Assembly (NCBI GenBank): GCA_001821615.1
Contig: MHMS01000004.1
Coordinates: forward strand, 1,401 to 37,595
DNA: 36,195 nucleotides
Origin: Candidatus Niyogibacteria bacterium RIFCSPLOWO2_12_FULL_41_13
GTDB taxonomy: Bacteria; Patescibacteriota; Minisyncoccia; 2-12-FULL-41-13
Direction: 5' to 3'
How positions within the stretch are numbered: the first letter of the stretch is position 1; each line of letters starts with the position of its first letter. The position numbers were made by a program, and so were the translations under genes. A model generated the notes under the pieces. The model was given only the letters and a program-made list of their open reading frames with translations. It was not told where the DNA came from and searched no databases. Positions 3,013 through 22,672 of this stretch are shown piece by piece.

Positions 3013-3041
3013 TTGCCAACTATGGAGGTTCAACCTCCATA
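3013..3041. repeat. Second copy of the palindromic core TTGCCAACTATGGAGGTTCAACCTCCATA
   Basis: Same 29-nt string as at 1989-2017; direct repeat flanking the 2310 module. Confidence 0.85.
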
Positions 3042-3101
3042 CACTCCATACAAACCTCCTTACAAAATTTTTCGCCGCCAAATCAATTAAGAACTGCTCT
3101 T

Positions 3102-3140: not shown

Positions 3141-4124
3141 TTACAATAATCCGACTTTTTCTTTGACTTGGTCCATTGTTTGACGCGCGACAACTTCGGC
3201 TTTTTTCGCGCCTTTTGACAAAATTTTAAGGACTTTGTCTTCGTCTGCCGCGATTTTTTCGCGTTTTTCTTGAATCGGTTTCAACGCTTTAATAACGACT
3301 TCCGCCAAGTCTTTTTTAAAATCAGCGTAATTCGCGCTTTTGAATTTTTCCACGGCATCCGGAATTGGGATTCCTGAAAATTCTGAATAAATCAAAATTA
3401 AATTTGAAATCGCCGGCCTTTTTTCAAAATCGTAAACGATATTTTTATATGAATCGGTAACGGCTGACTGAATTTTCCGCCTGATAATTTGCGGCGAATC
3501 GGACAAATAAAGGCATCCCTTGGGCAAGGTTTTTGACATTTTTTTCGTCGGGTCGTCCAAGCTCATCACGCGCGGAATCTTTGCTAAAATTCCTCTCGGC
3601 TCTTTGAAAATCTTGCCGAATCTCTTGTTAAAAGTTCGGACTATCGTTCTCGTTAATTCCAAATGCTGAAGCTGGTCCTCTCCGGCCGGCACAAATTCTC
3701 CCTTGTATAAAAGAATATCGGCGGCCATTAAAACCGGATAATCAAACAAGCCGACGTTAGGCGTCTCCCCGCCGCTGATTTTTTCTTTGTATTCAACCAT
3801 TCGCTCCAATTCGCCGACTGAAGTTATAGTGTTAAAAATCCAAGCGAGATTCGCGTGTTCGGGAACGGCCGACTGAAGAAAAAATGTTGATTTTTCGGAG
3901 TCAATGCCGGCGGCAAGAATGTCAACCGCCATATTGAGAATTTCCCGTTTTTTTTCTTCGGGTTTGTATTTTACGGTAAGAGAATGATAATCGGCGATAA
4001 AATAAAAACAATCGTATTTCCCGGAATTCTGCAATTCCGCCGCCTGCTTTAACATTCCCAGATAATTTCCGATATGAAGCTCTCCGGTCGGTTTTAGTCC
4101 GCTTACGATAACTAGTTTGGACAT
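3141..4124 (-). CDS. trpS: Tryptophanyl-tRNA synthetase
   Basis: SGLKPTGELHIGNYLGML (HIGH) and KMSKT (KMSKS-type) motifs; 327 aa. Confidence 0.96.
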   Translation of the reverse strand: MSKLVIVSGLKPTGELHIGNYLGMLKQAAELQNSGKYDCFYFIADYHSLTVKYKPEEKKREILNMAVDILAAGIDSEKSTFFLQSAVPEHANLAWIFNTITSVGELERMVEYKEKISGGETPNVGLFDYPVLMAADILLYKGEFVPAGEDQLQHLELTRTIVRTFNKRFGKIFKEPRGILAKIPRVMSLDDPTKKMSKTLPKGCLYLSDSPQIIRRKIQSAVTDSYKNIVYDFEKRPAISNLILIYSEFSGIPIPDAVEKFKSANYADFKKDLAEVVIKALKPIQEKREKIAADEDKVLKILSKGAKKAEVVARQTMDQVKEKVGLL

Positions 4125-4179: not shown

Positions 4180-4986
4180 TTATACCTCAATAATCACCGG
4201 CAGAACCATTGGCCGGCGCTGGGTTTTGCGGAAAAGAAAACTGCTGATTCGCTCTCTTAGCACATCTTTAACCCAGCTCCAATTAACCGGGTGCATTTTT
4301 GAAGTGGTTTCTTCCACCACCCTCCTGATTAATTTTCTTGTTTCAAAAAGAAGCTCTTTTGATTCGCGAAGATACACGAATCCGCGCGAGATAATGTCGG
4401 GGGACATTCTTACTTTGCCCGTCGCGCCGTCAACAACGGCGATGATCACGAATATGCCGTCAGCCGACAAAACCTGGCGGTCTCTTAAAACCACTTCTCG
4501 CACATCGCCCACGCCAAGTCCGTCAACCATCACATAGTTCGCCGGCACCCGTTCTTCAACAAGCAGAGCGGAATCTTTTTTTAAGAGAACAACGCGGCCG
4601 TTATCGCTTACAATCGTCTGTTCCGGCTTAAGTCCCAATGCCTCCTGCGCGTGCTGGGCGTTTCTCCATCTCATAAAATAATAACCGTGGATGGGAATGA
4701 AAAATTTCGGTTTGACAAAACGCATTACGGTTTTCAACTCTTCAATCGGAGCGTGTCCGCTTGAATGGATATCCATCATTTTGTAGTGATAAATAATCGC
4801 CCCCTGGCGGGCAATCTCGTCTCGCAGGGATTGAACCGCTCTTTCGTTTCCCGGAATCACCGAAGCCGATAAAATCACCGTATCGCCTTTCTTTATTTGG
4901 ATATGGCGGTGTTCTCCGCTTGCGATGCGCGCCAGACTCGCTTCCGGCTCCCCCTGGGCTCCGGTGCAAATAATCAAAATTTTATC
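4180..4986 (-). pseudogene. Partial duplicate of the RNase J 3' part (C-terminal 265 aa identical to the full gene)
   Basis: Sequence matches 5436-6242; homology stops abruptly after CAAAATTTTATC at 4986. Confidence 0.95.
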
Positions 4987-5009
4987 AAAGAGATAAAATT
5001 TCCGCGATA

Positions 5010-5038
5010 TTGACTTCTTTTCAGAAATACGCTATTTT
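5010..5038 (+). promoter_or_regulatory. Sigma70-like promoter of the 5087 gene
   Basis: TTGACT (5010-5015), 17-nt spacer, TATTTT (5033-5038). Confidence 0.6.
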
Positions 5039-5086
5039 AAAAAAGACCTTAAATTTGCGACAGTCCAAAAAGGAAAGGAGAGGGAT

Positions 5087-5380
5087 ATGCCAACAAAAAA
5101 CCCCAAGCAAGAAAGATTACTGGATCCAGATGTAATTGCCGAATTTCCCTATAAATTCTGCAAAGCGCTTCTCGAGAAGCTTAAGGAGTTAAAAAGAACT
5201 AATAGGATTTTTGTGGGGGAAGAAAATAGTCAATGTCCAACTACTACCACTATTGCTGATTTAGTAATAAGACATCTGACTAATAAACTGCTATACCCTC
5301 TTGATTATAAGAGTTCTTATAACATAGATGGGTTGATTAAGACAGCAGAAGAGTTTCTTGCTATTTTTGAAAAAAAATAA
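5087..5380 (+). CDS. Hypothetical protein (97 aa) inside the RNase J duplication
   Basis: RBS GGAAAGGAG, ATG, own promoter and terminator; oriented against rnj. Confidence 0.75.
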   Translation: MPTKNPKQERLLDPDVIAEFPYKFCKALLEKLKELKRTNRIFVGEENSQCPTTTTIADLVIRHLTNKLLYPLDYKSSYNIDGLIKTAEEFLAIFEKK

Positions 5381-5393
5381 CAAGGAATAACCC

Positions 5394-5436
5394 GGCTACA
5401 AGCGCTTTTAAAGGCTTGTAGCTTTTTATTTTTTTT
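5394..5436 (+). terminator. Rho-independent terminator of the 5087 gene
   Basis: CTACAAGC-gcttttaaag-GCTTGTAG followed by CTTTTTATTTTTTTT. Confidence 0.85.
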
Positions 5437-7154
5437 CAAACTTCAATAATCACCGGCAGAACCATTGGCCGGCGCTGGGTTTTGCGGAAAAGAAAACTGC
5501 TGATTCGCTCTCTTAACACGTCTTTAACCCAGCTCCAATTGACCGGGTGCATTTTTGAAGTGGTTTCTTCCACCACCCTCCTGATTAATTTTCTTGTTTC
5601 AAAAAGAAGCTCTTTTGATTCGCGAAGATACACGAATCCGCGCGAGATAATGTCGGGGGACATTCTTACTTTGCCCGTCGCGCCGTCAACAACGGCGATG
5701 ATCACGAATATGCCGTCAGCCGACAAAACCTGGCGGTCTCTTAAAACCACTTCTCGCACATCGCCCACGCCAAGTCCGTCAACCATCACATAGTTCGCCG
5801 GCACCCGTTCTTCAACAAGCAGAGCGGAATCTTTTTTTAAGAGAACAACGCGGCCGTTATCGCTTACAATCGTCTGTTCCGGCTTAAGTCCCAATGCCTC
5901 CTGCGCGTGCTGGGCGTTTCTCCATCTCATAAAATAATAACCGTGGATGGGAATGAAAAATTTCGGTTTGACAAAACGCATTACGGTTTTCAACTCTTCA
6001 ATCGGAGCGTGTCCGCTTGAATGGATATCCATCATTTTGTAGTGATAAATAATCGCCCCCTGGCGGGCAATCTCGTCTCGCAGGGATTGAACCGCTCTTT
6101 CGTTTCCCGGAATCACCGAAGCCGATAAAATCACCGTATCGCCTTTCTTTATTTGGATATGGCGGTGTTCTCCGCTTGCGATGCGCGCCAGACTCGCTTC
6201 CGGCTCCCCCTGGGCTCCGGTGCAAATAATCAAAATTTTATCGTCCGGATATTTGCCTATTTCTTCAAGAGGAATAAATGTTTCTTTTTCAAATTTCATA
6301 AAGCCGAGTTTTCTCGCAATCTGAATATTGTCCTTCATTGACCTGCCGCTGACGGCGACATTTTTCCCGAGCCGCTCGGCGATTTTAATAATTTCATTCA
6401 AGCGGTCAAGAAGAGAGGCGAATGTTCCGACGACAATCCGCCCTTTCGCCGCCTTAAAAATTCTTTCAAGCTCTTTCTCAACCACTCTTTCCGAAAGCGA
6501 CCACCCTTCTTCTTCGGCGCCGGTTGAATCAAGCAAAAGCGCGTTGATGCCTTGTTTGCCGATTTTTTCCCAGATATCAAGGTCTTTTGGTTTGCCCTCT
6601 AAATCATAATCAAATTTAAACTCGCCGGGATGTACTATTTTGCCCGCGGGCGTTTCCAAAACCAAGCCCACTCCTTCGGGTATGTTGTGGGTGACTGGAA
6701 AAAAATGGGCGGTGAAATTTTCCGAAAGCTTGCGGGTTTCTCCGGGCTTTATAATCTCAAAATTAAGTTTTGCCGAGTGGGGAAATTCTTCCTGCCGTCT
6801 TGCGATTATTTCTTTCGTGATTGAAGTGGCGTAAACGGGAGGATTTCCTATTTTTTCCATTATGTACGGAATGGCGCCGATGTGGTCATAGTGGCCATGG
6901 GTGATGACAAGCGCTCTGACATTTTGTTTTTTGCCTTCAAGATAAGAAATATTTGGGATTATGAAATCAATTCCCGGAGTTGTTTCTTCGGGAAACTGGA
7001 ATCCGGCGTCAATCGCGATTATTTCATTCTTATATTCAAAAATCATCATGTTTCTGCCGATTTCTTCCAAGCCGCCAAGAGCGATGAACCTGACCGCTTC
7101 GTCTTCTTTATGGATGATTTTTCTTTCTATTTTTATCGGTTTTTGCTTAATCAT
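5436..7154 (-). CDS. rnj: Ribonuclease J (metallo-beta-lactamase / beta-CASP)
   Basis: ALGGLEEIGRNM, THGHYDHIGAIPY, ICTGAQGEPEASLARIA, SSGHAPIEELK, IPIHGYYF; 572 aa. Confidence 0.95.
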   Translation of the reverse strand: MIKQKPIKIERKIIHKEDEAVRFIALGGLEEIGRNMMIFEYKNEIIAIDAGFQFPEETTPGIDFIIPNISYLEGKKQNVRALVITHGHYDHIGAIPYIMEKIGNPPVYATSITKEIIARRQEEFPHSAKLNFEIIKPGETRKLSENFTAHFFPVTHNIPEGVGLVLETPAGKIVHPGEFKFDYDLEGKPKDLDIWEKIGKQGINALLLDSTGAEEEGWSLSERVVEKELERIFKAAKGRIVVGTFASLLDRLNEIIKIAERLGKNVAVSGRSMKDNIQIARKLGFMKFEKETFIPLEEIGKYPDDKILIICTGAQGEPEASLARIASGEHRHIQIKKGDTVILSASVIPGNERAVQSLRDEIARQGAIIYHYKMMDIHSSGHAPIEELKTVMRFVKPKFFIPIHGYYFMRWRNAQHAQEALGLKPEQTIVSDNGRVVLLKKDSALLVEERVPANYVMVDGLGVGDVREVVLRDRQVLSADGIFVIIAVVDGATGKVRMSPDIISRGFVYLRESKELLFETRKLIRRVVEETTSKMHPVNWSWVKDVLRERISSFLFRKTQRRPMVLPVIIEV

Positions 7155-9031: not shown

Positions 9032-9173
9032 CCCAGTAAGACTAAATCGAATATTTCTTGCTAAATCCGCAAGTTGACATCCGATTATTATTGTATTTAA
9101 TTTTAATCTTGTAATAAAACATGTTTATACCACGCAAGAAACTGGATTTAGCATTCGATTTTGTCTTACTGGG
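9032..9173. mobile_element. MITE-like element copy 1 (142 bp), TIR CCCAGTAAGAC, TSD ATTA
   Basis: Imperfect TIRs CCCAGTAAGACTAAATCGAAT / CCCAGTAAGACAAAATCGAAT; flanked by ATTA on both sides. Confidence 0.88.
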
Positions 9174-20717: not shown

Positions 20718-20859
20718 CCCAGTAAGACTAAATCGAATATTTCTTGCTAAATCCGCAAGTGAATATCCGACTATTATTACGCTTAATTTTAATTTTGTAA
20801 TAAAACATGTTTATATCACGCAAGAAACTGGATTTAGCATTCGATTTTGTCTTACTGGG
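20718..20859. mobile_element. MITE-like element copy 2 (142 bp), TSD CATA
   Basis: Near-identical to copy 1; CATA on both sides; abuts the start codon of the 20716 gene. Confidence 0.88.
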
Positions 20860-20909
20860 CATAATAAGAAAAATATAACATATTTTTCTTGAAATTTCTA
20901 ATTTCTAAA

Positions 20910-20986
20910 CTATCCTCTCGCCGCCACCGCGCCGATGACAATTTTCGCTCCGGCTTTTTTGAGCGCAACCGCCCGCAAAACGTTGG
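20910..20986 (-). pseudogene. comF 3'-end remnant/duplicate (…ALKKAGAKIVIGAVAARG*)
   Basis: Reverse strand encodes the identical last 18 residues of ComF with synonymous differences and TAG instead of TAA. Confidence 0.85.
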
Positions 20987-21033: not shown

Positions 21034-21585
21034 CTACTTATTATTGTCTATAATAGACCTTGCCTCTTGAAGAACTTTTTGTTTGTCTGCCTCAAGTTCT
21101 TTTTCAGCCGCATCAATAAATGCTTTTGCGGCAACAAAAAGCATTGCCCTTCCAAAACCAGCCACAATCTTAGAACCTAGATCTAGAGTGCTCTCTTCAA
21201 AAAGTTTTAACCATTCATCTCTTACCTCGCCTTCAGTCGTTTTTATCAAGTATTCTCTGAGCCCTCCTTCATTGTTCTTTTCTAAAAAATCGAGAGCTGC
21301 TTCAAAATTAGTCCGCGAAACTTTGGGGAATTTTTTGCCATTACCCCGGTACAAAACCCCTAATAAAATAACCGAACTTCGGAAAAAACAACCTAAGGCT
21401 TTCTTAAATTCTTCGCTTTCTTCCGGTCCTGACAGATCAGCGGTGCCTTGCATCCAACCACCCAAAGTATTGTAGAAATCAGGAGCGCTCTCCAATGCTT
21501 TTAAAAACTCATCTATTAAATCCGAGCGATTACCCATAACTGCAAGTAGTGTGTATCGAAGATTTTCGCGATTTATCCTTATCAT
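21034..21585 (-). CDS. Hypothetical helical protein (183 aa) inserted at the comF 3' end
   Basis: RBS AAGGAGGAAGA, own promoter and terminator; no family recognised. Confidence 0.75.
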   Translation of the reverse strand: MIRINRENLRYTLLAVMGNRSDLIDEFLKALESAPDFYNTLGGWMQGTADLSGPEESEEFKKALGCFFRSSVILLGVLYRGNGKKFPKVSRTNFEAALDFLEKNNEGGLREYLIKTTEGEVRDEWLKLFEESTLDLGSKIVAGFGRAMLFVAAKAFIDAAEKELEADKQKVLQEARSIIDNNK

Positions 21586-21686: not shown

Positions 21687-21706
21687 CAGCAAAATAAGCA
21701 ATCAAA

Positions 21707-22405
21707 TTACCCTCTCGCCGCCACCGCTCCGATGACAATTTTCGCTCCGGCTTTTTTAAGCGCGCTCGCCGCCTCGCTCATCGTCGCGCCGGTTGTCAAA
21801 ACATCGTCAATCAAAACAATTCTCGCTTCTTTTAAAACAGGGTCGGGAGCTACTTCAAAAGAGCCTCTGATGTTTTCAAATCTTTGTTTTCTGGAACTCG
21901 TTCTCGCCTGGGGCGGCGTGTCTTTGATTTTTTTTAAAAGGCCGGTTTTGAGCGCAACTCCCAATTTTTCCGCGGTTGCCTCTGCCAGCAATTCCGCCTG
22001 ATTAAAACCCCTTGAGCGCTCTCTTGCGGGATGCAAGGGTATGGGAGAAAAAATTATTCCTGATTTCCAATCCGGAATCTCGCTCTTGATTCTTTCAGCC
22101 AAAATTCCGGACAAATCAAAAGCCACCTCTTTGATTCCGTTATATTTTAAAAATTTAATCGCCTTAAACAACGACTTGTTTTTACTGCTTCCGATGGCGA
22201 TTAGACCGTCCAAACCGCCGCTACAAAGACCTTGAAGGCTTTGACGCGGAGGTAAGTCCAATTCAAGATTTTTCAAACAGGAACGGCAAAAATACGCCCC
22301 GTTTTTTCCGCAAGAAAAGCAATTTTTGGGATAAACAAGATTTAAAATCGCAGAAATTGTCCTTTTGACTATATCCACAGTTGATAGGTATGCCCAGTAA
22401 GACAA
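21707..22405 (-). CDS. comF: ComF family phosphoribosyltransferase-like protein
   Basis: CFSCGKNGAYFCRSCL zinc motif; PIPLHPARERSRGFNQAELLA; VLIDDVLTTGATMSEAASALKKAGA. First codons (MSYWAY) fall in a MITE end; a GTG start near VDIVKR is an alternative. Confidence 0.93.
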   Translation of the reverse strand: MSYWAYLSTVDIVKRTISAILNLVYPKNCFSCGKNGAYFCRSCLKNLELDLPPRQSLQGLCSGGLDGLIAIGSSKNKSLFKAIKFLKYNGIKEVAFDLSGILAERIKSEIPDWKSGIIFSPIPLHPARERSRGFNQAELLAEATAEKLGVALKTGLLKKIKDTPPQARTSSRKQRFENIRGSFEVAPDPVLKEARIVLIDDVLTTGATMSEAASALKKAGAKIVIGAVAARG

Positions 22406-22531
22406 AATCGAATGCTAAATCTATTTTCTTGCCGAGCATAAATATGTATTATTACCAAATTATATTTAAGCGTAATGGTCGGATGCTTATTTTGGGATTT
22501 AGCAAGAAATATTCGATTTAGTCTTACTGGG
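22393..22531. mobile_element. MITE-like element copy 3 (139 bp, inverted relative to copies 1-2), TSD TATG
   Basis: CCCAGTAAGACAAAATCGAAT ... ATTCGATTTAGTCTTACTGGG; TATG on both sides. Confidence 0.88.
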
Positions 22532-22535
22532 TATG

Positions 22536-22672
22536 CCCAGTAAGACAATATCAAAGGTTCACCCCGCCGTCTCTACAAACATATTATGAACAATCAGCTT
22601 TATTTAAGCCATTATTCATTAACAAGCCCTATTGCGGATGAACGCAGGCAGATTTGATATTGTCTTACTGGG
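22536..22672. mobile_element. MITE-like element copy 4 (137 bp, second subfamily), TSD TATG
   Basis: 20-bp perfect TIRs CCCAGTAAGACAATATCAAA / TTTGATATTGTCTTACTGGG; unrelated interior; TATG both sides. Confidence 0.86.

Follow-up and report, generated by a model that had tools for sequence, protein, structure and literature searches.

In this study, the 3′ end of the RNase J gene (rnj) of Candidatus Niyogibacteria bacterium RIFCSPLOWO2_12_FULL_41_13 was found twice, on either side of a short block carrying a single small gene, orf97. The intact rnj ends in the tip of a different allele, the orphan tail adjoins the native neighbor of rnj, and the same arrangement recurs at other genes of this genome. 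The reading that we prefer, with a probability of roughly 0.6, is that a relative's rnj tail and the gene downstream of it were imported by one-sided homologous recombination, most likely via natural transformation. Patescibacteria are mostly uncultured bacteria with very small genomes, whose gene gain is poorly known. Orphan tails beside inserts are fossils of single gain events, recording the gene gained, the adjoining allele and the recency of the event, and they can be counted across thousands of genomes.

Structure of the rnj locus

The window (the whole stretch of 36,195 nt that was analysed, on contig C4) contains the two rnj tails as a direct repeat of 807 nt with an offset of 1256, and no other copy exists in the genome (Table 1). 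The copies differ at six positions (4181, 4183, 4186, 4260, 4264, and 4285). All six differences are silent, including the exchange of stop codons (TAA/TGA), and all lie at most 106 nt from the stop; the remaining 701 nt (4286-4986) contain no mismatch. The initial annotation had reported a duplication at this place, with silent differences clustered at the stop-proximal end and about 700 bp of identity beyond them, and every part of that description was borne out. With an even spread of differences, all six would fall within the stop-proximal 106 of 807 nt with a probability of ~5e-6; the probability that six random changes in the tail would all be silent is ~1e-4, given a silent fraction of 0.219. 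Since silent changes occur near the stop only and 701 nt are identical, the long stretches look copied from the resident rnj, the tip alone being foreign.

Gene order in relatives identifies the native end. There the genes run sbp, rnj, trpS; in most of 69 relatives' rnj loci trpS comes after rnj, often no more than ~100 bp away, and in L053, L054, and L080 the gap is 3-11 bp. This adjacency indicates that copy A, beside trpS, is the resident end; what arrived from outside is orf97 together with the tip of the intact gene. At the level of gene order, neither a second rnj tail nor an orf97 insert was seen between rnj and trpS in the relatives. The genomes compared all lie outside the family of the studied genome, and among them neither a donor carrying rnj and orf97 together nor a sister with an empty site came to light. 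Of the named genomes, a Candidatus Wolfebacteria genome has the closest RNase J, with 71% protein identity. The rnj-trpS spacer holds different small ORFs in several relatives (L059, L067, L069, and L078), which suggests that it is a variable slot.

Table 1. Features of the rnj and comF loci (positions in the window)
Feature	Position	Strand	Basis or remark
trpS, native downstream neighbor of rnj	3141..4124	-	ORF list and relatives' synteny
rnj tail copy A, orphan, native, 5′-truncated	4180..4986	-	adjoins trpS as in relatives
Perfect 10-bp inverted repeat AAATTTTATC-AAAGA-GATAAAATTT across junction 4986/4987	4977..5001
Inserted block, 449 bp, 34% GC, between the rnj tail copies	4987..5435	+
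Sigma-70-like promoter match TTGACT-17-TATTTT	5010..5038	+	weak evidence, not above chance
orf97, 97-aa protein; sporadic small family in Paceibacteria	5087..5380	+ (opposite to rnj)
Bidirectional terminator-like hairpin common to orf97 and the incoming rnj tip	5366..5440
rnj tail copy B, in the intact gene; stop-proximal part (at least 5436-5541) from the incoming allele	5436..6242	-
Intact rnj (RNase J, 572 aa)	5436..7154	-	Pfam
Orphan comF tail, 60 nt	20907..20966	-
183-aa gene inserted downstream of comF	21034..21585	-
comF-like gene, second case in the window; tail 21704-21763	21707..22405	-

The block was initially said to carry its own promoter, ribosome-binding site, ORF, and terminator. 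The ORF, an RBS-like site (AAGGAAAGGAGAGG) accompanying it, and the terminator-like hairpin were recovered; the promoter match was no better than chance, with 2 sigma-70-like matches against 1.9 expected. The terminator-like hairpin is strong on both strands (z -5.5 and -4.8). Its outer arm reaches into rnj and covers the first bases at the stop end, so that orf97 looks like an old convergent partner of the incoming rnj tip. The hairpin at 4977-5001 spans the opposite junction; 0.14% of window positions have such a hairpin within 3 nt. The block, in which orf97 is the sole ORF, contains no transposase or integrase gene and no terminal inverted repeats, in agreement with the earlier view that transposition was not involved.

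Among 384 genomes of the class, orf97 has two distant homologs (83 and 132 aa, located between unrelated genes), and pairwise BLAST E values within the family are 4e-10, 2e-9, and 1e-3. The flanks of the homologs in G124 and G090 showed no duplication within the 1.5 kb examined. Searches of phage and plasmid collections and IMG/VR viral contigs gave no match, and nothing above cut-off or credible was obtained from Pfam, NCBIfam, PHROGs, PADLOC, or PDB sequences. The single-sequence AlphaFold model (pLDDT 52) was too poor for a structure search, and any function ascribed to orf97 would be conjectural.

Recurrence of duplicated gene tails

The genome (G000) comprises 562 kb in 26 contigs, of which 369 kb (~66%) with 344 ORFs were scanned for similar structures. 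Eight other Paceibacteria genomes (100 kb each) and 40 rnj loci, together ~1.1 Mb with 997 ORFs, served as controls. Raw hits were classified by hand, leaving out MITE pairs, repeats within long repetitive genes, AT-rich spacers, and tandem pilin-like and transporter paralogs. Gene tails duplicated around inserts were found for 6 of the 344 ORFs, compared with 2 of the 997 in the controls (Fisher p 0.005). The tails belong to rnj, comF, a D-2-hydroxyacid dehydrogenase gene, comM, a Trp/Tyr permease-family gene, and uvrB, and the topology is common to them: a gene body with a variant tail, the inserted gene, an orphan tail, and then the old neighbor. The duplications other than that of rnj measure 34-131 bp, some being 80-84% alike. 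At about four more inserts, the duplicated flank is intergenic or 5′-flank sequence, about 50 to 131 bp long. The rnj duplication had been taken for a single event; it is now one of about ten insertions of this type within the sampled portion of the genome, which alters its meaning.

The comF case lies in the same window. Its tail copies differ at four positions, all silent, with stop codons TAA and TAG, and no relative of the 183-aa gene between them was found in 218 genomes. The dehydrogenase tails differ by one silent and one replacement change; the comM and permease tails show several replacements, many of them conservative. Judged from these substitutions, the copies differ as orthologous alleles do. 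The orphan dehydrogenase tail keeps its own stop, which overlaps that of the convergent neighbor, and is thus the resident end. The cargo in this genome includes an MNT-HepT fusion, a ParE toxin, a NucS-like nuclease, an amino-acid-kinase-family gene, and others without assigned function.

Cases were also found in other genomes. In G014, from another family, the tail of a V-type ATP synthase D gene is duplicated around an AbiEii insert, and the two tails are identical in protein sequence, their differences being silent. In G049, an MNT-HepT homolog is flanked by a 94-bp duplication, and the same segment is duplicated separately, over 66 bp, around an adjoining RelE-like pair (L219 1-1700); these side-by-side toxin-antitoxin inserts are two successive insertions of the same kind. 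Most other MNT-HepT homologs showed no flanking duplication within the 1.5 kb examined. The repeats in L062 and G014 had been considered as possible tRNA pairs, a reading that was dropped as neither site contains a tRNA; the pair in G014 is a genuine duplication of a gene tail. Taken together, these cases point to a recurring route of single-gene gain, often with toxin-antitoxin-like cargo, that leaves the neighboring gene unbroken. That accessory and toxin-antitoxin genes travel with a neighbor's 3′ end by a mobility route dedicated to, or strongly favored in, Patescibacteria is a tentative idea that we consider rather improbable. If it holds, the incoming 3′ end repairs the target and leaves the orphan tail, so that gene gain and its donors could be read from single genomes.

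Some other elements were noted in the window and genome. The sampled contigs contain 18 full-length copies of a MITE-like family (137-143 bp), four of them in the window (9032-9173, 20718-20859, 22393-22531, and 22536-22672). The family has the terminal inverted repeats CCCAGTAAGAC...GTCTTACTGGG, nearly all copies show a target duplication of 4 bp, and none occurs in the sampled control genomes. The palindrome GAGGTTNAACCTC occurs in intergenic hairpins at 11 sites of the genome, far above chance, two of them in the window (e.g., near 3020-3050), and one insert (C25 52775-53608) has it at its ends; it is possibly a terminator or REP-like element. A 204-aa gene (2310-2924) without a Pfam match has 59% GC in surroundings of 42% GC, and just 2 of 141 other genomes contain relatives of it; it looks like another recent single-gene gain.

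Proposed route of insertion and alternative explanations

In the proposed course of events, the cell would have taken up, most likely by natural transformation, DNA of a related strain in which the convergent orf97 follows rnj. Homologous recombination with the resident rnj would have placed the incoming 3′ tip at the end of the intact gene. The opposite end of the piece, which lacked homology, may then have been joined illegitimately to a second resident rnj template, 807 bp upstream of the stop; this template could have been a sister copy or a displaced strand. The outcome would be a duplicated resident tail, orphaned beside trpS, and no broken gene. One-sided import covers the foreign tip, the resident orphan tail, and the 701-nt identity without further assumptions. 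Also supported are the initial proposals that the insert was captured by homology, that the tip of the intact gene comes from a related but non-identical allele, and that an intact rnj was regenerated. Both comEC and dprA are present in the genome. Experiments have established transformation in a cultured Patescibacterium: Saccharibacteria can be transformed with linear DNA, and this requires comEC (PMC10633639). Three points speak against one-sided import: no donor and no empty-site sister was found among the genomes compared, classical homology-facilitated illegitimate recombination usually deletes rather than duplicates (PMC3240628), and most E. coli duplications of such size arose from recircularised fragments by a single crossover (PMC3240628).

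The main rival is accordingly a Campbell-type event, in which a circularised piece with the rnj tail and orf97 was integrated by one crossover in the tail. It gives exactly the topology of the product, and a single crossover readily makes such duplications in E. coli, where 56 of 60 such clones carried them and the 14 sequenced measured 109-950 bp (PMC3240628); also in its favor, the shorter duplications of our genome differ along their whole length. The single crossover initially suggested, taken in its plain form over the whole 807 nt, does not match the rnj locus: a donor with 6 differences in 106 nt should show ~40 in the 701 nt, and none is seen. Later homogenisation by conversion is therefore needed, and this conversion would have to be one-sided, leaving no difference up to 4986 yet sparing the tip. 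We regard this as a real but clearly less probable account than one-sided import. Selection would favor either product, as no gene is lost. Much less probable is that the rnj tail was first duplicated in tandem within the genome, with orf97 inserted independently and the copies drifting afterwards. Tandem duplications are known to arise without flanking repeats (PMC3784515); however, the clustered and all-silent differences, the stop swaps, and the recurrence at comF are unlike drift in a dead copy, and no relative was seen with the duplication but without orf97.

It is unlikely, though less so than the tandem duplication, that strain variants with and without orf97 were wrongly joined by the assembler. 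N gaps occur in the assembly, one of them within a 142-bp repeat. At 701 nt, the exact rnj repeat is by far the longest sampled, the next being 115 nt, and short reads normally would not bridge it; the bridged rnj repeat thus needs read-level confirmation. Overlaps at contig ends did not reveal the assembler. Against an artefact, neither rnj junction contains an N, and both junctions together imply a block with an rnj tail on each side. The same class appears, too, in the independent assemblies G014 and G049, and the other duplications, of 34-131 nt and in some cases only 80-84% alike, are spannable by single reads, so these shorter cases are free of the assembly weakness of the rnj repeat.

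Comparison with known systems

Integration of a satellite at a gene's 3′ end, with an integrase supplied in trans and a replacement tail carried by the element, finds its model in e14 in icd of E. coli, where the topology is the same: the gene receives from the incoming DNA another 3′ end, changed mostly at silent positions, and the old tail lies beyond the insert (PMC2973815). Whereas e14 is a 15-kb prophage with an integrase, the rnj block is 449 bp and has none. No insert carries a recombinase gene of this kind, the tails, at unrelated genes and of 34 to 807 nt, share no common att core, and the 701-nt identity would not be expected; we therefore give site-specific integration very little credence. 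The merodiploids made by transformation in pneumococcus are similar in that unequal interchromatid integration of transforming DNA yields tandem duplications, but these span 100-900 kb and are driven by dispersed repeats; one repeat-less case of 3.3 kb is closer (PMC3784515).

Homology-facilitated illegitimate recombination and duplication-forming single crossovers have one homologous end and one illegitimate end, the latter with or without microhomology of 3-10 bp, and give duplications of 109-950 bp (PMC3240628); the rnj case resembles them in its homologous end, its presumed illegitimate end, and the size of its duplication. The homologous end is seen here in the incoming rnj tip, which is 94% identical over 106 nt. 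Those were laboratory events whose strict product is usually a deletion, whereas the present ones are natural and recurrent; as resident DNA was duplicated instead of deleted, the rnj case works like homology-facilitated illegitimate recombination without being a member of it.

The insertion with long target duplication of Helicobacter pylori (Nobusato et al. 2000, as described in PMC1643837 and PMC3031569) is also comparable. In both, a gene lies between long direct target duplications of variable length without a transposase, and the cargo is of a selfish or defence type; the duplications of tens to hundreds of bp known there compare with 807 bp and 34-131 bp here. Our cases differ in their host, Patescibacteria, in carrying single small or toxin-antitoxin-like genes instead of restriction-modification systems, and in duplications of up to 807 bp that are often at gene 3′ ends and whose copies are different alleles. 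Restriction-modification cargo is a tendency of that literature and not a strict criterion; orf97 matched no database family above cut-off, and the other cargo is toxin-antitoxin-like. The abundance of orphan tails and their toxin-antitoxin-like cargo extend a mechanism known mainly from Helicobacter restriction genes.
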